A stretch of DNA of 14,801 bases from Faecalimonas sp. (GTDB lineage Bacteria > Bacillota_A > Clostridia > Lachnospirales > Lachnospiraceae). Positions 3,031-14,801 of this stretch are shown here, piece by piece; position 1 is the stretch's first letter; each line of letters begins with the position of its first letter. The notes under the pieces were generated by a model. The model searched no databases and was not told the origin of the DNA. It saw only the letters and a list, made by a program, of their open reading frames with translations. The DNA is taken from contig JAPFCT010000191.1 in NCBI GenBank assembly GCA_026169575.1, forward strand, positions 1 through 14,801, in the 5' to 3' direction. The position numbers were made by a program, and so were the translations under genes.

Positions 3031-4251
3031 CTATTTGCGGAAAGCAAATGCCGGAAGCCCATTTTCAAATGGTACTTCTACATTTCCCTGGATCAATGGA
3101 AGGGCATAACGGATGAATTCCTCCCCAATGTCAGATCCATCCTTTGTGATCCATGACAGTGGGACTCCTTTTTCTTGATTACAGATATTATTTACATCGG
3201 CAGTTGTACAAGTCAGTTTATACGGAGCATCGCCTATTCGCTGGAAAGATACCATTTTTCCGGTCTCACCCCGTAGTGCGGCCTGGACCCCGTAAGTTCC
3301 GGCATAGACAGCCTCATTTAAGTCTGTTGCAGAGAGGCAGGCAGAGGAACATCTCTGACTGACATTGAGCTCTACGGAGCGGACTTTGATGCCAAGGCGT
3401 TCTTTTACGAGGTTTTCCAGATATTTTCCAGAGCCGGTAAGCATCTTGTGACCAAAGTTATCGACTCCGACATCACTTGCATATTCACATACAAAAGTAC
3501 CATTTCCATCATTGATCCCTTCAGAGATACATACGACGAGGTTCGGGGTCATCTCCAGTGCTTCCGCCACTTTCTGTATGAAAGCATCCTGATCGAAAGC
3601 GACTTCCGGAAGGTAGATCAGAACTGGATTGTCGTTTTCAAATTTGCGGGCAAGGACACTTGCGGCAGTCAGCCATCCGGCATGACGGCCCATGATCTCT
3701 ACGATCGTCACTGATTTTTTATTGTCGTAGACAGAAGCATCGATGGCAATCTCGCGTACGGTGGAAGCTACGTATTTTGCAGCGCTTCCAAAGCCCGGCG
3801 TATGGTCAGTCTCGACAAGGTCATTGTCGATCGTCTTTGGAATACCGATAAAACGAATATCGCTCTGGACAGAGGCTGCATAGCGGGAAAGCTTGCTTAC
3901 CGTATCCATAGAGTCATTTCCGCCGATATAGAAGAAATATCCGATATTTTTATCGGCAAATTTTTCAAATAATTTCGGGTAGACGGCATCTGTCAGATCT
4001 TCCGGCAGTTTATAGCGGCAGGATCCAAGATACGCTCCAGGAGTTGTCCGGATACGTTCTAACTCTCCGCTCTCCGAAAGGGGACGCATGTCCATGATCT
4101 GGTCATTTAAGAACCCTTCAATCCCATTGACCATTCCAAAGACAGTATCGACGGTGTCAGTCTGGCGAAGACCTTCTGTCACAACACCGTAAAGGCTTCC
4201 GTTGATCACGGCAGTTGGTCCGCCGGACTGTCCTACAATTATATTTTTCAT
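3031..4251 (-). CDS. pfp: Pyrophosphate-type 6-phosphofructokinase, paralog 2
   Basis: 406 aa, the same enzyme class as the gene at 141-1379 and clearly its paralog along the whole length. It shares GQSGGPTAVIN (7-17), LGSCRYKLPE (75-84), GGNDSMDT (110-117), PKTIDND (138-144, catalytic Asp142), MGR (187-189) and PLIQGNV near the C-terminus. The Asp in GGNDS and the Lys in PKTIDND suggest PPi as phosphoryl donor, by family knowledge. The start is ATG at 4249-4251, because GGAGG sits 8 nt upstream. The longer frame from 4266 would place that ribosome binding site inside the gene. It is transcribed from its own promoter (4285-4313), divergent from the glycosyltransferase, and ends toward the pseudokinase. 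Why two copies are kept close together is not evident; different regulation or effectors are possible. Confidence 0.9.
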   Translation of the reverse strand: MKNIIVGQSGGPTAVINGSLYGVVTEGLRQTDTVDTVFGMVNGIEGFLNDQIMDMRPLSESGELERIRTTPGAYLGSCRYKLPEDLTDAVYPKLFEKFADKNIGYFFYIGGNDSMDTVSKLSRYAASVQSDIRFIGIPKTIDNDLVETDHTPGFGSAAKYVASTVREIAIDASVYDNKKSVTIVEIMGRHAGWLTAASVLARKFENDNPVLIYLPEVAFDQDAFIQKVAEALEMTPNLVVCISEGINDGNGTFVCEYASDVGVDNFGHKMLTGSGKYLENLVKERLGIKVRSVELNVSQRCSSACLSATDLNEAVYAGTYGVQAALRGETGKMVSFQRIGDAPYKLTCTTADVNNICNQEKGVPLSWITKDGSDIGEEFIRYALPLIQGNVEVPFENGLPAFAFRK

Positions 4252-4284
4252 GTGAATTACCTCCAAAAAAATGATTATGCTTCT

Positions 4285-6198: not shown

Positions 6199-7932
6199 AT
6201 GGCAGATCAGAAAATTGAAAATCTGTTGAATCTTGCATTGAGTGTCAGTGAGGAAGAACGAGAAAAGTCTCTGGAACTCGATGTTGGATATTATCCGGTC
6301 GCAAGGACGTGGGAAGTTATCATAAAATATTCAGGAACACTTGAGCAGGTTCGTGGAATCGCAGAGAGTGTTGTAGAGTTAAGCAATGAATTTGCGATTG
6401 TGACGATCCGGGAAGAACGACTGGAAACTTTGTCCGAGATTGCGGAAGTAGAATATATTGAGAAGCCAAAGAGATTGTTTTTTCAAGTGGAAAATGGGAG
6501 AAGGGTGTCCTGCATCACATCGGTGCAGGTACGCCCTCCAAAACTTTTTGGGGAAGGAGTACTGGTCGCAGTTATTGATTCGGGGATTGATTATGCAAAT
6601 CCAGATTTTCGCAAAGAAGATGGAACAACAAGGATCTATGCATTGTGGGATCAGACAATCCCGGGAAATCCACCTGAGGGCTATGTGCAGGGAACAGAAT
6701 ATACAAGAGAACAGATTGATGAAGCACTGCAGCAGGCAAGCCGGACAGAACAGATGAAAATCGTGCCAAGCGAGGACAGATCCGGTCATGGGACTGCTGT
6801 GGCAGGGATTGCAGTGGGCAATGGAAGAGGAAGTGAGGGACAACGTTATCGGGGTGTCGCATCCGCGAGTGGACTGCTTATTGTGAAACTGGGGACGCCA
6901 AGAGAAGAAGGATTTCCACGGACGACAGAATTGATGCAGGCGATTGATTATGTCGTGAAAAAGTCACAGCAGATCGGAATGCCGGTTGCGGTCAATATCA
7001 GTTTTGGAAATACATATGGATCTCATACCGGAACAAGTCTTTTGGAACGGTTTATTGCAGATATTGCGAATTTGTGGAAAAGTGTGATCTGTATCGGTAT
7101 GGGAAATGAAGGGGCAAGCGCCGGCCATACATCGGGGATCCTGAGAGAGTATGCGGAGGAGCAGATTCCGCTTGCTGTGCAGGAGCGGGAGACTGCGATC
7201 AATGTGCAGATATGGAAAAGTTATCATGATATTGTGGATATCTCGCTGATTTCGCCGTCAGGTGTGCAGATCGGTCCGATCCCGGAAGTGATCGGTACAC
7301 AACGTTTTGTGATCGGAGACACCGAAATTTTATTGTACTATGGCGAGCCGAGTCCCTTTCATGTCCAGCAGGAAATTTTTATTGAATTTCTTCCGAGAGA
7401 TTCCTACATTACACCAGGGGTCTGGCAGTTTGTTCTGACACCCAGAAAGATTATAACGGGGGAATATGACTTGTGGCTTCCGAGTGAGAATGTATTAAAC
7501 AAGGGCACTGCATTTCGCTATCCGACCGAGAGAGGAACTCTTACAGTTCCATCCACATCCCAGCGGGTGATCAGCGTGGGCGCTTACGATCCGCTGACTT
7601 TTGCATATGCGGATTTTTCGGGAAGAGGAGGAGCTGCAGCATGGGAAGAAGGGAAACCAGATCTGGCAGCGCCGGGAGTGGACATTATGGCGCCGACGCC
7701 GTCTGGAATCTATCAGACCTTTACGGGGACATCATTTGCGACACCATTTGTGATAGGCGCGGCGGCGCTTCTCATGGAGTGGGGAATCGTAAGAGGGAAC
7801 GATCCGTATCTGTATGGGGAAAAAGTAAAGGCATATTTGAGGAGAGGCGCAAGGCCATTGCCGGGATTTGAGGAGTATCCGAATAATCAGGTGGGGTATG
7901 GGGCACTGTGTGTGGAGGCGAGTTTGCCGTAA
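6199..7932 (+). CDS. CspA/B/C-like S8 (subtilisin) family serine peptidase
   Basis: 577 aa subtilase of the clostridial Csp-like type. The catalytic triad is intact: Asp127 in VAVIDSGID, His197 in SGHGTAVAGIA and Ser512 in GTSFATPFV, with oxyanion-hole Asn303 in GMGNEG. Residues about 35-105 resemble a short inhibitor/propeptide domain. A beta-rich insertion between about 325 and 445 (jelly-roll region in Csp structures) separates the oxyanion Asn from the Ser block. There is no signal peptide or membrane segment, as in clostridial Csp proteins, which act in spore germination by processing the cortex hydrolase SleC. That role is inferred from family only: no sleC or second csp gene lies nearby, and many Lachnospiraceae carry several such proteases of unknown substrate. 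GGGGTGATAGT gives the ribosome binding site before ATG 6199. Confidence 0.88.
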   Translation: MADQKIENLLNLALSVSEEEREKSLELDVGYYPVARTWEVIIKYSGTLEQVRGIAESVVELSNEFAIVTIREERLETLSEIAEVEYIEKPKRLFFQVENGRRVSCITSVQVRPPKLFGEGVLVAVIDSGIDYANPDFRKEDGTTRIYALWDQTIPGNPPEGYVQGTEYTREQIDEALQQASRTEQMKIVPSEDRSGHGTAVAGIAVGNGRGSEGQRYRGVASASGLLIVKLGTPREEGFPRTTELMQAIDYVVKKSQQIGMPVAVNISFGNTYGSHTGTSLLERFIADIANLWKSVICIGMGNEGASAGHTSGILREYAEEQIPLAVQERETAINVQIWKSYHDIVDISLISPSGVQIGPIPEVIGTQRFVIGDTEILLYYGEPSPFHVQQEIFIEFLPRDSYITPGVWQFVLTPRKIITGEYDLWLPSENVLNKGTAFRYPTERGTLTVPSTSQRVISVGAYDPLTFAYADFSGRGGAAAWEEGKPDLAAPGVDIMAPTPSGIYQTFTGTSFATPFVIGAAALLMEWGIVRGNDPYLYGEKVKAYLRRGARPLPGFEEYPNNQVGYGALCVEASLP

Positions 7933-7981
7933 TAGAATGTAATAAAAATAGTGAAATTTTGTGTTGTTGGAACAAAGACAA

Positions 7982-8040
7982 GGAGCCATCACAACTATGG
8001 TCGAATCCATTTTTTGATTCACCATATATGAAACGGCTCC
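7982..8040 (-). terminator. Long imperfect hairpin, probable end of the CreR-like RNA
   Basis: GGAGCC (7982-7987) pairs with GGCTCC (8035-8040). Inside, ATGGT and GAATC pair with ACCAT and GATTC around an 8-nt loop (8008-8015) with one bulged base. On the minus strand it is followed by the T-rich TTGTCTTTGTT, compatible with termination. On the plus strand it lies 49 nt after the S8 peptidase stop, so it may serve both directions. It overlaps the last six bases of the spacer-like segment. Confidence 0.5.
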
Positions 8041-8069
8041 CTGCTTGTTTCAAAATAATACTTTCTTGT

Positions 8070-8101
8070 ATTTCAATCCACAGTCAAATGACTGAACAGA
8101 A
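8070..8101 (-). repeat. Diverged single CRISPR repeat (psi-repeat) of the CreR-like RNA
   Basis: It has the same 32-nt length as the array repeats if it begins at the predicted transcription start. Identity is complete only in the 3' 12 bases (handle plus closing stem G). The stem is replaced by a different but self-complementary sequence with an ATTT loop. The conserved parts are those that matter for Cas5c cleavage and handle binding. Confidence 0.8.
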
Positions 8102-8108
8102 CTTTTAT

Positions 8109-8137
8109 ATTTTAATAAAAAAAATGGTATATGTCAA
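8109..8137 (-). promoter_or_regulatory. Promoter of the CreR-like RNA
   Basis: On the minus strand, a perfect TTGACA (8132-8137), a 17-nt spacer and TAAAAT (8109-8114, 5/6) form a strong sigma-A promoter. Transcription should start near 8102, right at the edge of the repeat-like unit, so the RNA would need little or no extra leader. It points away from the cas promoter. Confidence 0.75.
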
Positions 8138-8142
8138 ATTAC

Positions 8143-8172
8143 TTCCTATAATTTTATTTGCAATTATAGGAA
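8143..8172. repeat. 11-bp perfect inverted repeat between the divergent promoters
   Basis: TTCCTATAATT (8143-8153) and AATTATAGGAA (8162-8172) are exact reverse complements separated by TTATTTGC. It is placed just upstream of the creR -35 box and 41 bp upstream of the cas -35 box. It could be an operator for an unidentified regulator or a cruciform-prone element. No function is proven. Confidence 0.55.
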
Positions 8173-8194: not shown

Positions 8195-8219
8195 TTCACA
8201 AGAAAGTAATATATTGACA
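8195..8219 (+). promoter_or_regulatory. Predicted CreR-Cascade binding site on the cas promoter
   Basis: The TTC at 8195-8197 is the type I-C PAM. Starting at 8198, the plus strand equals the spacer-like segment at positions 1-11, 13-15, 17-20 and 22, i.e. 19 of 22, and then diverges. The first mismatch is position 12, a sixth-base position that does not pair in type I crRNAs. The site overlaps the cas -35 box at 8214-8219. A full 35-nt footprint would reach about 8232, blocking RNA polymerase. Confidence 0.8.
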
Positions 8220-8242
8220 ATGTAATTAAAGCATGTTATATT
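8214..8242 (+). promoter_or_regulatory. cas operon promoter
   Basis: A perfect TTGACA (8214-8219), 17 nt, and TATATT (8237-8242, 5/6) preceded by an extended -10 TGT (8234-8236). The expected start is near 8249, leaving a very short 5' leader before cas3 ATG 8265. The strength of this promoter fits the need for a dedicated repressor. Confidence 0.8.
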
Positions 8243-8264: not shown

Positions 8265-10598
8265 ATGAACGTATTTACAGCACATAAACGAGAAGTGGAT
8301 GGAAGATTAGAGATACAGACTGTGTTTGAGCACAGCAGGGAAACAGCAGATTTAGGAGAAGGGTATGCCAAAAAAATAGATACTTCGGTTATTGCAAGGA
8401 TGCAGGGAATGATCCATGATGCGGGGAAATTATGCAGAGATTTTAATGATTATATTCTGGAGAAAAACAATTTTACACGAGGAATGATAGATCACTGTTA
8501 TGCGGGAGCAAGGTATTTGATGGAACTTGCGAAAAAGACCGGGGAACCAAAGATAGTAGAAGTGGCCAGATTTATTTCATATACGGTTATTTCACATCAT
8601 GGATTACATGACTGGATTGATAAAGAGGGAAATGACTATTTTCGGGAGAGAATTTCAAAGGATGAACGGTATGAAGAAATACGGAGTAATTTGATTCAAA
8701 TGTTGTCAGAACAAGAATGGTTAAATCTGCTTTATGCCGCGAAAGAAGAGTATATGGCGATTAGGGGAAAAGTTGCCCAAATAGGGAAAGACACAACTAC
8801 ATTCGCATTTTACATGGGACAGTTTGAACGGTTGATGCAGTCGGTGCTTGTGGATGCAGACCGGACAAATACTGCCGATTTTCAGGAAGGAAAAGGAACA
8901 GAGGCTGTGTTTGAGGAGAACATCTGGGAGGTGCTTAGTGAGAAAGTGGAAGCAAAATGCGGGGAGTTTCGTGAACGAAAGGATCCGCTTTCAAAATTGC
9001 GGTGTGATATTTCAGAACGTTGCAAATGCTATGCAGAACGGGAAACAGAGATTTGCAGGATGATCGTTCCAACTGGAGGTGGAAAGACGATATCCGCTTT
9101 GCGTTTTGCGATTCATTACTGCAAGAAGCATGGGAAAGAAAGGATATTTTATATAGCGCCTTTCCGGACAATTTTGGAGCAGAACTGTGAGGAATGGAAG
9201 AGAATTGTTGGAGAAGAGTATGTATTGGAGCATCATTCTGATATGATTGCATCGTTTAAAATAGAGGAGGAAATGGCAGAGTATGAACTGAGAGCAGATA
9301 AATGGGATATGCCGATAATAGCAACTACACTGGTTCAATTTATGAATACATTTTTCTCAGATCGAATGGATTCGGTGCGGAGAATGCACCGATTATGCAA
9401 TTCAGTAATTATTATTGATGAAGTGCAGTCAATACCAGCAGAATGCGTGTGCTTGTTTAATCTGGGAGTGAATTTTATATCAACAATCGGGAAGTCAGCT
9501 GTTGTATTGTGTTCTGCAACACAGCCTGCTTTGGAGGAAGTAAAGTATCCACTGCGGATCACAGATAGTAAGGCATACAGCATGACAGGCGATTATTCAG
9601 GTGATTTTCAGGCATTTAAGAGGAACGAAATTATATCTGCATTGCGAAAATCTGGCTATACATATGTAGAAGCAGCAAAATTTTGTATGGAAAAATACCG
9701 TACAGAAAGAACGGTGTTATTTGTGGTGAATACGAAAGCAGCAGCTTTTGAGGTTTATCAGGAACTCTGTAAGCAAAAGGATTCTGAGATGATCCTTGTA
9801 CATCTTAGTGCGAATATGTGTCCGGAACATAGGAGAAGTTTGATAAGGGATTTGAAGGAGAAACTGAAAAAAGACAAGGTTATTTGTGTAACTACACAGC
9901 TGATAGAAGCGGGAGTTGATATATCATTCCGCTGTGTGATACGTTCGCTTGCAGGGATGGATAATGTGGCGCAGGCAGCAGGCCGCTGTAATAGAGAAGG
10001 AAAAGATGGTGAATGTTGCCCGGTTTATCTTTTGAATGTATGTGAAGAGGAGATTTACGCGCTTAAATCGATAAAAACAGCGCAGGATGTATCACGACAG
10101 ATGATTGATAGTAAGGCTTATGAGGATCTGGCATCGGTGGAGGCAATGCAGCTATATTTTCAAAAATATTATAAGGAGTGTAAAGAAGATCTGATGTACA
10201 ATGTGGAAGATGCAGGGATGGAAACAGATCTGGTGAATTTACTGTCGATGAATGCGTATAGAAATTGTGGGAAGAAGAGTTATCGGGTACAGGCATTTAA
10301 GACAGCGGGAGAACTGTTTAAGATGATCGATGTACCTACAACTTCTGTAATAGTACCTTACAATGAGGAAGCGAAAGAGTTGATGGTACAGCTAAGAACA
10401 GAAACAAGTAATTCTGAGATTGTTAAAATTTTAAGACGGGCACAGAAATATACAGTTGGTCTTTCTGAGAAAACGAAAAGGATACTAGAGAAAGAAAAAG
10501 CATTGGAACTGCTGCAATGTGGAGTTTGGCTGCTTGAGGAGGGTTATTATGATCAGAATGTGGGGGTAACGCTGAAACGGGGGACATGGATTTACTGA
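8265..10598 (+). CDS. cas3: Type I-C CRISPR nuclease-helicase Cas3
   Basis: 777 aa, the effector nuclease recruited by target-bound Cascade to nick, unwind and degrade DNA. The N-terminal HD nuclease domain has His23, HD at 51-52, His77 and HH at 111-112, plus DADR near 197-200. The SF2 helicase follows: Walker A VPTGGGKT (268-275), IIIDEVQ (382-388), SAT (417-419), motif V from VTTQLIEAGVDIS (542-554) and motif VI AQAAGRCNR (569-577). The fused HD-helicase is full length with no break. ATG 8265 is preferred over in-frame GTG 8256, since AAAGGA at 8249-8254 would be too close to the GTG. It is the first gene of the cas operon, under the promoter at 8214-8242, which carries the predicted CreR-Cascade target. 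The gap to cas5c is 34 bp. Confidence 0.95.
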   Translation: MNVFTAHKREVDGRLEIQTVFEHSRETADLGEGYAKKIDTSVIARMQGMIHDAGKLCRDFNDYILEKNNFTRGMIDHCYAGARYLMELAKKTGEPKIVEVARFISYTVISHHGLHDWIDKEGNDYFRERISKDERYEEIRSNLIQMLSEQEWLNLLYAAKEEYMAIRGKVAQIGKDTTTFAFYMGQFERLMQSVLVDADRTNTADFQEGKGTEAVFEENIWEVLSEKVEAKCGEFRERKDPLSKLRCDISERCKCYAERETEICRMIVPTGGGKTISALRFAIHYCKKHGKERIFYIAPFRTILEQNCEEWKRIVGEEYVLEHHSDMIASFKIEEEMAEYELRADKWDMPIIATTLVQFMNTFFSDRMDSVRRMHRLCNSVIIIDEVQSIPAECVCLFNLGVNFISTIGKSAVVLCSATQPALEEVKYPLRITDSKAYSMTGDYSGDFQAFKRNEIISALRKSGYTYVEAAKFCMEKYRTERTVLFVVNTKAAAFEVYQELCKQKDSEMILVHLSANMCPEHRRSLIRDLKEKLKKDKVICVTTQLIEAGVDISFRCVIRSLAGMDNVAQAAGRCNREGKDGECCPVYLLNVCEEEIYALKSIKTAQDVSRQMIDSKAYEDLASVEAMQLYFQKYYKECKEDLMYNVEDAGMETDLVNLLSMNAYRNCGKKSYRVQAFKTAGELFKMIDVPTTSVIVPYNEEAKELMVQLRTETSNSEIVKILRRAQKYTVGLSEKTKRILEKEKALELLQCGVWLLEEGYYDQNVGVTLKRGTWIY

Positions 10599-10632: not shown

Positions 10633-11382
10633 ATGAACAGAGAACTTTACGGGAACAGAGTTGAATTTCAGGTATATGGAAAGTACGCACTGTTTTCGGA
10701 TATATTGACACGGCCAGGTGGGGAAAAGATGTCCTATCCGATTCCGACATACGAAGCTTTAAAAGGAATTTTAAGCAGTGTTTTCTGGAAACCGACGATA
10801 GAATGGAAGATCGACAGTGTCCGTGTTATGAATAAAATCCAAACAGTGCGCAAAGGGATGCGGCCAATTAAATACGGAGGTGGAAATGAACTTGCTTATT
10901 ACACTTATTTAAGTGATGTTTGCTATCAGGTCAAAGCGCATTTTGAGTGGAATATGAATCGTCCAGAGTTGAAGCAGGACAGGAATGCAAAAAAGTATTT
11001 GAGCATTGCGCAGCGCATGATCGAACGAGGAGGAAGACGAGATATCTTTCTTGGGACAAGGGAGTGTCAGGGCTATGTAGAACCGTGTCATTTCGGGGAA
11101 GGAAAAGGTTATTATGATGAGAGTGGGACAATTTCCTATGGTATTATGTACCACGGAATTACCTATGCAGATGAGGCAAAGCTTTCAGAGGACAAAGGGA
11201 AAATGACAGTGAGATTGTGGAATCCGGTTATGGAAGATGGAGTGATTCAATTTATCAGTCCGGAAGAATGTGTAATGAAACGGCATATAAAAGAGATGCC
11301 AATAAAAATTTTTGGTAGTGAAAAGAACTTTAGTGGGATCAGAGAGTTTGGGAAGGAGGAGAAAATTGAGCTGGACGAATGA
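10633..11382 (+). CDS. cas5c: Type I-C pre-crRNA endonuclease and Cascade subunit Cas5c
   Basis: 249 aa. In type I-C, which lacks Cas6, Cas5c (Cas5d, Csd5 class) cuts the repeat hairpin to give the 11-nt 5' handle and stays bound to it in Cascade. Family landmarks are FGK-like YGKYALFSD near the N-terminus, PTYEALKGI (38-46) with the likely catalytic Tyr40, YGGGNELAYYTYL (81-93) and FLGTRECQGYVEP (139-151). In the DRNAKKY segment (116-122), Lys121 aligns with the catalytic Lys of the Bacillus halodurans enzyme. The neighbouring His appears replaced by Tyr122; this rests on a remembered family sequence and needs an alignment. GAAAGGAAGAG precedes ATG 10633. Its 3' end overlaps cas8c by 17 nt, so translation is coupled. 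Confidence 0.95.
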   Translation: MNRELYGNRVEFQVYGKYALFSDILTRPGGEKMSYPIPTYEALKGILSSVFWKPTIEWKIDSVRVMNKIQTVRKGMRPIKYGGGNELAYYTYLSDVCYQVKAHFEWNMNRPELKQDRNAKKYLSIAQRMIERGGRRDIFLGTRECQGYVEPCHFGEGKGYYDESGTISYGIMYHGITYADEAKLSEDKGKMTVRLWNPVMEDGVIQFISPEECVMKRHIKEMPIKIFGSEKNFSGIREFGKEEKIELDE

Positions 11383-13273
11383 GTTGTATCAAGTGTACGA
11401 AAATAATTGGGGAAAAGTTGATGAAAAGGTATTGCTGCTTCCTATTTATCATTCTACAGTGAATGCTCAAGTCGAGGTGACCTTGTCGGAAGATGGAGAA
11501 TTTTATTCGGCAGTTCCTGTTATGGATAAAAAGGACTCTGTTACAGTAATCCCGGTAACAGAAGATTCTGGGACGCGCAGTTCGGGAATTACACCGCATC
11601 CATTTGCGGATAAACTGATTTATATTGCCGGAGATTATAAGGAATTTGTATCCGGAAAACATACAGAGAATCAGAAATATTATCAGGCATATCTGGAGCA
11701 GTTGGGAAAATGGAATGATTCACGAAACAGTCATCCGGCAGTCAGGGCGGTATACATATATTTGCGTAAGGGGAGACTGATGCATGACCTGATTGAGGGG
11801 AGATGCCTGAAGAGTGATGAAAAAACAGGAAAACTGAGTCAGAATAATAAAATTTTTGGTATCAGTCAGGAAGAATTTTTTGTAAGATTTCGTGTGAATT
11901 ATAAAGATGTGCTTGAGAAAGAAAGCAGGACATGGAAGGATTTTTCTCTTTATGAAAGTTTTATTTTGTATCAGTCGGAAAATCAGGATAGGAGCCAGCT
12001 TTGCTATGCAACGGGAAAGAATACTTCATGCACGTATAAGCATCCTTCAAAGATACGAAATGCAGGGGATAAGGCAAAGTTGATTTCCTCAAATGACGAA
12101 AGGGGATTTTCTTATCGTGGAAGATTCGATTCAAAAGAACAGGCATTATCTGTAGGGTATGAGTTTTCACAGAAAATGCATAATGCGCTCAAGTGGCTGA
12201 TTGAAAAACAGGGAATTGCGATCGGGTCGATGATAGTTTTAGCCTGGGCAAGTAATATGCAGGCATTGCCGGATATTATCGGAAATCCGGAAGATGATCT
12301 GGAAGATGAATGGGACATGCTGGAGGAGAACGAGTCCGATGATGGAAAATCCACACTGGTATCAGATACCATGCCTCTTTATAGGGAACGTTTGAGAAAG
12401 GCTGTCTGGGGAGCGAAAAAGCAGAACGAAATCAAAAGTCAGATAGATCATAGAGAAAAGGCAATGATCATGGTGCTGGATGCGGCGACAACAGGAAGGG
12501 TATCTATCGGAATGTATGAGGAACTAGGAATTTCTGAATTTTATCAGAATGTAGAACGCTGGCATTTTGAAACGGCATGGAATTGTTTTTCAGGGAAAGC
12601 AAGGACAAATGAGATCCGGTCCTTTTCGCTTTATGAAATAGCTGATTATGCATATGGAACAGAGCAGGGAGATTTTATAAAATGTAAGCAGGAAGTGCGG
12701 AAACAGGCGATATCGAAGTTGGTTCCGTGTGTGATAACTGGAAGAAAGATTCCAAAAGAGATTGTAAGAAATTTGTTTCATAAAGCTTGTAAACCAACTG
12801 CATACCAGAATCGTTATAATTGGCGGAAAGTATTGGAAGCAGCGTGTGGAATGATACGCAAGACGATGATTGAAGAGAAAAAAGCCAGAGGAGAAAAGGA
12901 GGAATATGAAGTGGCATTAGATTATGAATGTGCAGATCGCGATTATCTGTATGGTCGGCTGCTTGCGGTGGCGGAAATAGCAGAACGAGTTACATATAAA
13001 AAAGAAGAGGCAAGGACAACAAATGCGAGCCGCTATTTTGAAGCATTTTCAAACAGACCATATCAAACATGGGGGATTATTTATAAACGTCTGATTCCAT
13101 ATTTAAATGGAATGCCATATACACAGAAACAATATTATGAAAATTTGATCAGTGAAATAGAAAATCAGTTTACGATAGCTGATTTTGAAAATAATTCAAA
13201 GTTAAAACCATTGTTTCTGTTGGGATATCATTGCCAGCTGAAAAATGTGTCATCAAAAAAGAGTGTGTCATAG
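11366..13273 (+). CDS. cas8c: Type I-C Cascade large subunit Cas8c
   Basis: 635 aa (Csd1 family). It recognises the PAM and helps open DNA in the I-C Cascade. The start is a TTG at 11366: a perfect AAGGAGG (11353-11359) lies 6 nt upstream, and the resulting MSWTNELYQVYENNW matches the usual Cas8c beginning MSWxxxLYxxYExxx. The frame extends upstream to 11312, but that part overlaps cas5c and lacks family character. Recognisable later segments are HPAVRAVYIYL, VLAWASNMQALPDI, MIMVLDAATTGRVSI and the C-terminal helical block. An acidic insertion (about residues 309-327) is notable. The last 120 codons also appear to be translated separately as Cas11c from an internal GTG. The gap to cas7c is 11 nt. 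Confidence 0.93.
   Translation: MSWTNELYQVYENNWGKVDEKVLLLPIYHSTVNAQVEVTLSEDGEFYSAVPVMDKKDSVTVIPVTEDSGTRSSGITPHPFADKLIYIAGDYKEFVSGKHTENQKYYQAYLEQLGKWNDSRNSHPAVRAVYIYLRKGRLMHDLIEGRCLKSDEKTGKLSQNNKIFGISQEEFFVRFRVNYKDVLEKESRTWKDFSLYESFILYQSENQDRSQLCYATGKNTSCTYKHPSKIRNAGDKAKLISSNDERGFSYRGRFDSKEQALSVGYEFSQKMHNALKWLIEKQGIAIGSMIVLAWASNMQALPDIIGNPEDDLEDEWDMLEENESDDGKSTLVSDTMPLYRERLRKAVWGAKKQNEIKSQIDHREKAMIMVLDAATTGRVSIGMYEELGISEFYQNVERWHFETAWNCFSGKARTNEIRSFSLYEIADYAYGTEQGDFIKCKQEVRKQAISKLVPCVITGRKIPKEIVRNLFHKACKPTAYQNRYNWRKVLEAACGMIRKTMIEEKKARGEKEEYEVALDYECADRDYLYGRLLAVAEIAERVTYKKEEARTTNASRYFEAFSNRPYQTWGIIYKRLIPYLNGMPYTQKQYYENLISEIENQFTIADFENNSKLKPLFLLGYHCQLKNVSSKKSVS
12911..13273 (+). CDS. cas11c: Cas11c small subunit translated from an internal start in cas8c
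   Basis: In type I-C the small subunit is made from an internal start within cas8c (established for this subtype). Here a perfect AAGGAGG (12896-12902) lies 8 nt before GTG 12911, in frame with cas8c. This gives a 120-aa helical protein beginning MALDYECADRDYLYGRLLAV. The size and the position at the conserved ALDxxxxDxxYLxGRL segment match known Cas11c starts. It would line the Cascade belly and stabilise the non-target strand. The nearby ATG at 12905 is out of frame and meets a stop within five codons. Confidence 0.8.
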   Translation: MALDYECADRDYLYGRLLAVAEIAERVTYKKEEARTTNASRYFEAFSNRPYQTWGIIYKRLIPYLNGMPYTQKQYYENLISEIENQFTIADFENNSKLKPLFLLGYHCQLKNVSSKKSVS

Positions 13274-13284
13274 GAGGAAAAATA

Positions 13285-14145
13285 ATGAATAGTTTGTCTA
13301 ATAAAATTGATTTTGCGTTACTTGTAACTGTGACGAATGCAAATCCTAACGGGGATCCGCTGAATGGGAATCGGCCAAGAGATAATTATGATGGATATGG
13401 AGAGATATCTGATGTTTGTATTAAGAGAAAACTTAGGAACAGACTGCAGGATATGGGAGAAAAAATCTTTGTACAGTCAGATGATCGGTGTGATGACAAC
13501 TGTGATAGTCTGAAAAGTCGTGCAGATAGTTGTGGAATGCTGAAAAAGCTTGCTTCCGGTAAAAAAACAAATCGTGATGAATATGCAAAAGCGGCATGTG
13601 CAGAGTGGATTGATGTGAGAAGTTTCGGGCAGGTATTTGCGTTTAAAGGAGATGCGGTATCAGTAGGTGTGCGTGGCCCGGTTTCCATTCATCAGGCAGT
13701 GAGTCTGTCACCTGTTGACATTGTCAGCATGCAGGTTACTAAGAGTGTAAATAGTGAGAGTAAAGAAGGGAAAAGTTCTGACACAATGGGAATGAAACAC
13801 CGTATTGAATTTGCTTTGTATGAAATAAAAGGAAGCATTAATTGCCAGCTGGCTGAGAAGACGGGATTTTCAGATGAAGATGCAGAAAAAATAAAGCATG
13901 CATTGTGTACACTCTTTGAAAATGACAGTTCTTCTGCAAGACCAGAAGGAAGTATGGAGGTCTGCAGATTATATTGGTGGAGACATAATTGCAAAACTCC
14001 AAGTGTATCGACGGCAAAAGTACACCGATCTTTGAAAATATCAGAAAAAAATCCGGGGGAGAAACCACGGAGTTTTGATGACTATTTGATTACGGTAGAG
14101 GAACTCCCAGGTGGTGTTGTGCCTGAAATTATTGACTTAATGTAA
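13285..14145 (+). CDS. cas7c: Type I-C Cascade backbone subunit Cas7c
   Basis: 286 aa (Csd2 family). About seven copies coat the crRNA spacer and form the Cascade filament. It shows the family hallmark NANPNGDPLNGNRPR near residues 19-33, then FAFKGDAVSVGVRGPVS, the QVTKSVN segment and the C-terminal RSFDDYLITVEELPGG. It is full length with no frameshift. ATG 13285 follows AGGAGG with a short A-rich spacer; the longer frame from 13231 lies within cas8c. It is the last cas gene in the window. Canonical I-C loci continue with cas4, cas1 and cas2, but here the CRISPR array follows after 226 bp. Confidence 0.95.
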   Translation: MNSLSNKIDFALLVTVTNANPNGDPLNGNRPRDNYDGYGEISDVCIKRKLRNRLQDMGEKIFVQSDDRCDDNCDSLKSRADSCGMLKKLASGKKTNRDEYAKAACAEWIDVRSFGQVFAFKGDAVSVGVRGPVSIHQAVSLSPVDIVSMQVTKSVNSESKEGKSSDTMGMKHRIEFALYEIKGSINCQLAEKTGFSDEDAEKIKHALCTLFENDSSSARPEGSMEVCRLYWWRHNCKTPSVSTAKVHRSLKISEKNPGEKPRSFDDYLITVEELPGGVVPEIIDLM

Positions 14146-14371
14146 GAGTTGAAATGTCTGCCGGAGTTCATAAAGGAAAGCAGATAGATACTGTACTTGG
14201 GTATTTTGAAAGTGCGAATAAGAAGCAGACAAGAAAATGCAGAGGGATTCGCACTGGAAAAAATACCAGTAATTGTTTTTAAAGAGAGTGAATCTGATAT
14301 TTTGATAAGAAAAAATGGGAAAGTAGATAAAAATTAACAAGAAAGCGGGAATATTATTGTATATTTTTGCT
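14146..14371 (+). promoter_or_regulatory. Putative CRISPR leader region
   Basis: 226 bp, AT-rich toward the array, between cas7c and the first repeat. TTAACA (14334-14339) and TATATT (14360-14365) resemble promoter boxes, but their 20-nt spacing is poor. Short open frames exist (14154-14282, 42 codons; another ending at 14337 that reads EKIPVIVFKESESDILIR). Neither resembles cas4, cas1 or cas2, nor has a ribosome binding site. The array could also be read through from the cas operon, since no terminator is visible. Confidence 0.5.
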
Positions 14372-14801
14372 GTCGTACCCTTCGTGGGTACGTGGATTGA
14401 AATGTATTTTGTGATGTGTTGCGCTTTGTTATCGGAATCGTCGTACCCTTCGTGGGTACGTGGATTGAAATTCACTCATAATGTTTTTATCTTTGCAATT
14501 GATACGGTCGTACCCTTCGTGGGTACGTGGATTGAAATCACATCGACTCTGATCCGGGAATACAAAAGCACATAGTCGTACCCTTCGTGGGTACGTGGAT
14601 TGAAATCGGTTCCAGCACCTCCTCAAGCGATGCCTTTTGTGTCGTACCCTTCGTGGGTACGTGGATTGAAATGATCAAAGAAGTGCTGGACAATCCGAAC
14701 GAATTAAGTCGTACCCTTCGTGGGTACGTGGATTGAAATCGGTGTCTTTTTTCTCACAAAATTCGAACTGTACAGTCGTACCCTTCGTGGGTACGTGGAT
14801 T
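14372..14801 (+). CRISPR. Type I-C CRISPR array, seven repeats seen, continues beyond the window
   Basis: The 32-nt repeats begin at 14372, 14440, 14507, 14575, 14641, 14708 and 14775 (last cut after 27 nt). All are identical as read. Each has a 7-bp stem CGTACCC/GGGTACG with a TTCGT loop, then the 11-nt handle TGGATTGAAAT, typical of type I-C. Spacers are 36, 35, 36, 34, 35 and 35 nt and all different. The handle orientation shows transcription on the plus strand, the same direction as the cas genes, with the leader end at 14371. Perfect repeat identity suggests this part of the array is young or under selection. Several spacers are open in at least one frame, as expected for protospacers from coding phage DNA, but no source is identified. 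Confidence 0.98.

Follow-up and report, generated by a model that had tools for sequence, protein, structure and literature searches.

A likely one-repeat CreR-type gene with a guide to the cas promoter beside a type I-C CRISPR-Cas operon of Faecalimonas sp.

The window analyzed here, a contig stretch of 14,801 nucleotides from Faecalimonas sp., carries a crRNA-like unit that lies outside the CRISPR array and beside the cas operon, and that is very probably a one-repeat CreR-type gene acting as the autorepressor of its own type I-C operon. CreR RNAs are described as crRNA-like autorepressors of cas genes in types I-B, I-E and V-A (PMC13131331), as occurring in type I and V-A systems generally (PMC12737573), and as mini-CRISPR regulatory RNAs that sense crRNA abundance (PMC12948488). 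The first-pass annotation of this DNA had invoked the CreR/CreA principle, and the principle fits; given that it is already in print for the three types named in PMC13131331, the type I-C element is an extension of it and not a new principle.

The operon and its array are arranged as follows:

8265..10598, plus strand: cas3 (TIGR01587 and TIGR01596), the first gene after the target promoter
10633..11382, plus strand: cas5c (TIGR01876), pre-crRNA nuclease and handle binder, starting 34 bases after cas3
11366..13273, plus strand: cas8c (TIGR01863)
13285..14145, plus strand: cas7c (TIGR02589)
14372..14801, plus strand: CRISPR array of 32-nt repeats ending in GTGGATTGAAAT, with six repeats complete and a seventh truncated at the window end

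The NCBIfam models matched by the last three genes (cas5c, cas8c and cas7c) identify the system as type I-C, which is among the most prevalent subtypes and in which Cas5c holds the 5' handle and processes crRNA without Cas6 (PMC7684278). Control of a type I-C operon by CcpA and CodY has been described in Streptococcus mutans (PMC10434267). A remnant of cas4-cas1-cas2 was sought between cas7 and the array (14146-14371) and was not found; these genes are present at that place in L002, L003, L050, L054, L065 and L079, and window positions 14211-14254 resemble the sequence that immediately precedes the array in L024, L002 and L054. From this comparison, the missing adaptation module looks like a loss in the window's system. 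On its other side the CRISPR locus adjoins a germination-protease-like gene (6199-7932; CspB prodomain and subtilase), and the element lies between that gene and cas3. Elsewhere in the window, two phosphofructokinase genes (138-1379 and 3031-4266) are less than 2 kb apart.

The array handle GTGGATTGAAAT occurs seven times in the window, six of them in the array repeats; the seventh stands by itself on the minus strand at 8081-8070. With up to one mismatch allowed, 0.19 matches in total would be expected by chance. The lone copy is exact, as the first-pass annotation had stated for all 12 bases on the spacer side of the repeat. Around it, the predicted gene consists of the following:

8109..8137, minus strand: predicted guide RNA promoter, TTGACA-17-TAAAAT, agreeing with the consensus at 11 of 12 positions
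8070..8097, minus strand: lone degenerate repeat GTTCAGTCATTTGACTGTGGATTGAAAT, a 28-nt repeat-like unit
8050..8069, minus strand: guide ACAAGAAAGTATTATTTTGA, about 20 nt, with its counterpart at 8198-8217
7967..8053, minus strand: long 3' hairpin, the putative RNA end, from the predicted fold, with hairpins at the same place in relatives

The minus-strand promoter at 8137-8109 predicts an RNA start near 8102, in agreement with the position guessed beforehand, although the promoter scan found three promoter-like sites in this AT-rich stretch against 2.7 expected by chance. Within the lone repeat, a stem of 5 bp, CAGTC (8094-8090) with GACTG (8085-8081), sits flush against the 11-nt handle TGGATTGAAAT at 8080-8070 (minus strand), whereas the array repeats have CGTACCC/GGGTACG; the hairpin is therefore kept with its stem bases changed, just as had been noted. 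Degenerate repeats are described as resisting recombination and as tying an RNA to the system it belongs to (PMC9458426). The spacer-like segment that the annotation placed after the repeat is indeed there as a guide, but it is not a free 35-mer, as about 20 nt (8069-8050) lead into the long hairpin. The predicted fold of the whole 151 nt has an energy of -50.8 kcal/mol (z -5.8), and a single weak 5-bp hairpin is all that touches the guide. The T-run after the long 3' hairpin is weak, and the terminator/promoter scan scored no canonical terminator there. A scan at Rfam gathering thresholds matched no family, and a search for tRNA and tmRNA found none.

On the opposite strand, the counterpart of the guide lies at the promoter of the cas operon:

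8195..8197, plus strand: PAM of the target, TTC, read from the sequence
8198..8217, plus strand: guide target ACAAGAAAGTAATATATTGA, directly after TTC and overlapping the cas3 -35 box
8214..8242, plus strand: predicted cas operon promoter, TTGACA-17-TATATT, 11 of 12 consensus matches, with the -35 box TTGACA at 8214-8219

Fifteen of the first 17 guide bases match at 8198-8217, with mismatches at positions 12 and 16, so the earlier suggestion that the spacer-like part is directed at the cas promoter holds; counted as a run in which every sixth base is ignored, the match is 15 long. When up to two mismatches are allowed outside positions 6 and 12, the first 16 bases of the guide match at a single further place in the window, plus-strand position 8198. 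The predicted -10 box ends at 8242 and the ATG of cas3, at 8265, is directly downstream of the matched promoter. TTC is a tested type I-C PAM, and killing by the system concerned needed at least 27 matched bases (PMC8406640). Because the approximately 16-20 paired bases here fall short of that number, we infer that the complex should bind the target but hardly cut it. An inverted repeat, CCTATAATT...AATTATAGG (8145-8170), separates the promoter of the guide RNA from the target and is a possible protein operator.

In order to place the element among related systems, we assembled loci with a related Cas3. An alignment of 34 Cas3 proteins yielded the best 80 of 318 genome loci, and a further 83 came from more genome searches; with L158 left out for having too little upstream sequence, the set held 163 loci with the window. 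Fifteen of these were dropped, eight as duplicates and seven with fewer than 250 bases upstream (L025, L064, L142, L147, L161, L176 and L211), leaving 148 loci, in 137 of which the DNA includes Cas5c. Lone handles with at most three mismatches were sought no farther than 700 bases from cas3, and the sequence following each was checked against sites of that region flanked by TTC or TTT. Matches were scored as the run of consecutive matches with every sixth base ignored, and, as a second measure, as the number of matches over positions 1-17 with no position favoured and a cut of at least 13/17. As the handle was the search key, its conservation alone is no independent test.

Runs of at least 12 were found upstream of cas3 in 17 of the 148 loci. 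By the position count, 13/17 or better was reached by 20 of the 30 lone handles carrying no more than two mismatches, the array-borne handles of L198 and L210 (17 of the 47 with at most two mismatches) being excluded. Together with L148, in which a handle with three mismatches precedes a guide matching at 17/17, this gives upstream elements in 21 loci including the window, the weakest matches being those of L152 and L171. Swapping guides between loci rarely reproduced such fits. When each guide following a handle with at most two mismatches (array-borne ones included) was set against 60 other loci, two of 2820 pairings reached a run of 12 and none a run of 13, and for handles with three mismatches the corresponding result was 2/7140 and none. 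By position count, 7/1800 swaps reached 13/17, compared with 20/30 own-locus pairings. A fitting guide followed 1 of 119 upstream handle sites with three mismatches, compared with 20 of the 30 handles with at most two. Ten of these 30 lack such a target, two of them being second handles in L065 and L155, and the late loci L213-L215 gave no match in the region upstream of cas3 that was examined. PAM-flanked runs of at least 12 upstream of cas3 also follow 56 of 213,133 non-handle positions (duplicates included); these are largely tandem or inverted repeats, as in L042, L053 and L018, and were not counted. Viral contigs scanned with the Cas3 alignment gave partial helicase matches only, at 39% identity or less, and were not used.

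For 15 of the 21 upstream elements the target overlaps or adjoins a promoter-like site, compared with 137 of 420 random PAM sites, and 10 of the 21 loci have a -35 box at 17-nt spacing, located 14-24 bases into the target. A looser promoter-like site precedes the element itself in 18/21, a count made without a chance control. In L065, L079, L140, L148, L154 and L171 the target is 302-558 nt upstream of cas3, and in these six loci another transcript could therefore be the one controlled. Good lone repeats near cas3 or cas5c are also found in L199, L207 and L159, with guides that have no match nearby, and these may regulate other genes.

Lone minus-strand handles likewise occur between cas3 and cas5c, in loci without an upstream handle. 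Among the 137 loci in which this gap was tested, 23 of 33 handles with at most two mismatches reach at least 13/17, in 23 loci other than the upstream ones. Their TTC-flanked targets are 1 to 292 bases from the cas5c start and in most cases just upstream of it, within about 40 bases in most of the 23 loci. Ten of the 33 handles lack such a target, including those of L056 and L032, which reach 12/17. Swapped between loci, one of 1980 pairings reaches a run of 13, and 53/1980 reach 13/17 because the gap promoters share a -10. Judged by eye, many gap loci have TTGACA and a TATAAT-like box, with the guide match covering the -10 and the presumed start. At guide position 18 there is a mismatch to the target in 23/23 gap elements (for example L031, L024 and L033), where free drift expects 75%, and the gap matches seem cut off at 17 bases.

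The two placements are mutually exclusive and follow the spacing of the genes. Where cas3 and cas5c are separated by fewer than 100 bases, 21 of 99 loci have an upstream element and 78 have neither type, and no upstream element is found with a wider gap. Where the gap is 100-600 bases, 23 of 31 loci have a gap element (L056 and L032 being counted here at 12/17) and eight have neither. Loci in which the end of cas3 is unclear contribute two more gap elements and five without. The 34 bases between cas3 and cas5c in the window agree with the upstream placement. Upstream where the gap is small and in the gap where one is present, the guide thus goes with the promoter expected to drive the Cascade genes. 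Both placements together account for 44/148 loci including the window (21 upstream and 23 gap), with differing guides. Free drift of handle, hairpin and spacer-like seed in homologous loci had been named beforehand as evidence against the reading; in these 44 loci the guide fits a PAM-flanked site at the locus's own cas promoter region. At the 13/17 cut, 104/148 loci have no element in either place, 11 of these being covered upstream of cas3 only. The element is therefore not essential. The loci without it include L001, which is closely related to the window and has a gap of 185 bases, and in which these searches detected none.

Guide bases 6 and 12 are known not to pair in Cascade R-loops. 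Across 43 elements (20 upstream and 23 gap), 30 mismatches are at position 6 and 22 at position 12, and no other position among the first 16 has more than three; selection on the paired bases of the R-loop would be expected to leave this pattern. For the CreA of a type I-B system, bases 1-5 and 7-11 together with TTC are needed and changes at 6 and 12 are described as harmless (PMC8501985). As a control, 842 array spacers were compared with their own loci: runs were at most 9 upstream of cas3 and at most 9 upstream of cas5c, where 1/842 reached 13/17.

The guide anatomy is the same as that of CreA, and the element could be read as a CreTA antitoxin, an RNA that through Cascade keeps a small toxin, CreT, repressed and so makes the cell dependent on Cascade. 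Like the element, CreA (described for I-B in PMC8501985 and PMC9458426 and for I-F in PMC10097628) has a degenerate repeat with a conserved handle end and a TTC PAM, its seed comprises 1-5 and 7-11 with positions 6 and 12 free, and the form of H. hispanica has one repeat and a terminator (PMC8501985). The distant targets of some relatives would also leave room for a short transcript. However, the window has no CreT toxin and its element targets the cas operon promoter, which cas3 directly follows; with the -10 ending at 8242 and the ATG at 8265, there is no room for a separate toxin gene. The gap targets, mostly within about 40 bases of the cas5c start, speak against a toxin as well, and we regard the antitoxin reading as very improbable.

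Secondary structure was compared by asking for a flush hairpin, defined as at least 5 pairs with a loop of at most 10 directly before the handle. Such hairpins, of varying sequence, precede 14/21 upstream elements and 20/25 gap elements, compared with 8.6% of 26,644 random positions, in support of the earlier proposal that the structure is being kept and is not decaying. An earlier stem test with long loops and G-U pairs allowed found 5 pairs by chance in 28% and was replaced as too permissive. L162 and L205 have no flush stem of at least 4 pairs, and L155 and L079 have unusual repeats. After the guide, gap elements fold with a mean of -23.8 kcal/mol over 60 nt, compared with -9.4 (sd 5.8) nearby, and 3' hairpins are also found in the 21 upstream elements, which were folded without a chance control. 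In the sister loci L165 and L166, an identical run of 51 bases spans handle, guide and hairpin, placing the element among the best-kept stretches between them. Two changes in the stem keep the pairing (G-U versus G-C and G-U versus A-U), and over target positions 1-18 the sisters differ at position 12 only. In a quick tree built from the Cas3 of 142 loci, with six short sequences excluded, upstream elements were marked and gap elements left unmarked; the 21 upstream elements are spread across many clades, with 19 parsimony changes. The nearest neighbours of the window, L002 and L054, each have an element in a similar place and in the same orientation with another guide.

That patchiness, the difference of nearly all stem bases from the array repeat, and the loss of cas4-cas1-cas2 would suit a functionless, decaying repeat left over from an old array or mini-array. 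A relic, however, would not hold on to its flush hairpin, its handle and a six-periodic fit to its own promoter across 44 loci whose guides differ, nor be among the best-kept stretches between L165 and L166, and there is very little chance that the element is one. Least credible of all is a Racr, an RNA anti-CRISPR left by a mobile element whose repeat mimic sequesters Cas proteins: a single CRISPR repeat unit behind a promoter is what Racrs have, and a solitary type I-C unit acts in this way in a Bifidobacterium prophage, but Racrs are described as encoded by viruses and plasmids and as acting by mimicry (PMC10651486), whereas this element lies between the germination-protease-like gene and cas3, no phage-type match was found among the 10 window genes scanned with protein-family models (one gene had no Pfam match), and a pure mimic needs no guide fitted to the cas promoter.

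As an autorepressor, the element would be transcribed from its predicted promoter into a minus-strand small RNA extending from about 8102 to 7967. Cas5c would cut at the foot of the hairpin and leave the handle UGGAUUGAAAU at the 5' end, and Cas7 and Cas8c would load onto the short guide. The resulting type I-C Cascade would sit on the cas3 promoter, block RNA polymerase without cutting, and so repress its own operon. Described CreRs suggest by analogy that crRNAs from the array would compete for Cascade, raising cas expression when crRNA is plentiful, and an anti-CRISPR that disables Cascade would likewise raise it. Convergent transcription may interfere, since the germination-protease-like gene runs towards the predicted RNA gene.

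The main doubt about processing in the window comes from the Cas5c active site. The proposed catalytic residues of BH0337 are Tyr46, Lys116 and His117 (PMC3652601), and by our reading of the alignment, on which the residue offset rests, they correspond to F51, K121 and Y122 of the window's Cas5c, which therefore lacks two of the three. The combination Y-K-H is found at these positions in 134/137 loci and in 117/121 aligned Cas5c proteins (the window and the 120 matches listed), and processing may therefore be weak in the window. Two of the three closest Cas5c proteins among the matches listed are F-K-H, so the change may have been stepwise. The altered site may also still work, as L069, with cas4-cas1-cas2 and an array, shares the F-K-Y double change.

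Described CreRs are mini-CRISPRs with two repeats, and Liu et al. 2023 is reportedly the primary paper. Like them, the element is predicted to yield a crRNA-like RNA next to the cas genes; its guide is partly complementary, beside a PAM, to the cas promoter, and in the window it has no toxin gene under its control. Unlike them, it belongs to type I-C, with no Cas6 and with Cas5c as the putative processor, and it has one repeat and a terminator-like hairpin after a guide of about 16-20 nt. No type I-C case of CreR was recognized in the open literature searched, most subscription papers lying outside it. Judged by its sequence, the element would be a Cas6-free, one-repeat, hairpin-ended form of CreR in type I-C, unless the original CreR paper lists it.

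Beyond the window, we see an even chance that autorepressor guides form a widespread class peculiar to type I-C, which moves with the Cascade promoter and stays in step with it while the sixth bases drift, and whose loop in the window outlived both the adaptation genes and the change in the Cas5c active site. This class would comprise a promoter, one drifting repeat, a seed of 16-17 nt, a terminator-like hairpin and a Cas6-free Cascade. A CreR-type gene here would extend RNA-guided autoregulation of cas genes to type I-C, a subtype without Cas6. The 44 natural guide-target pairs indicate, from sequence alone, the bases that a type I-C R-loop needs, namely 1-5, 7-11 and 13-16, and a lone handle followed by a PAM-flanked match to the locus's own promoter offers a simple finder for such regulators. 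The CreR reading also predicts that cas expression in these Clostridia would rise in response either to abundant crRNA or to a Cascade blocked by an anti-CRISPR.
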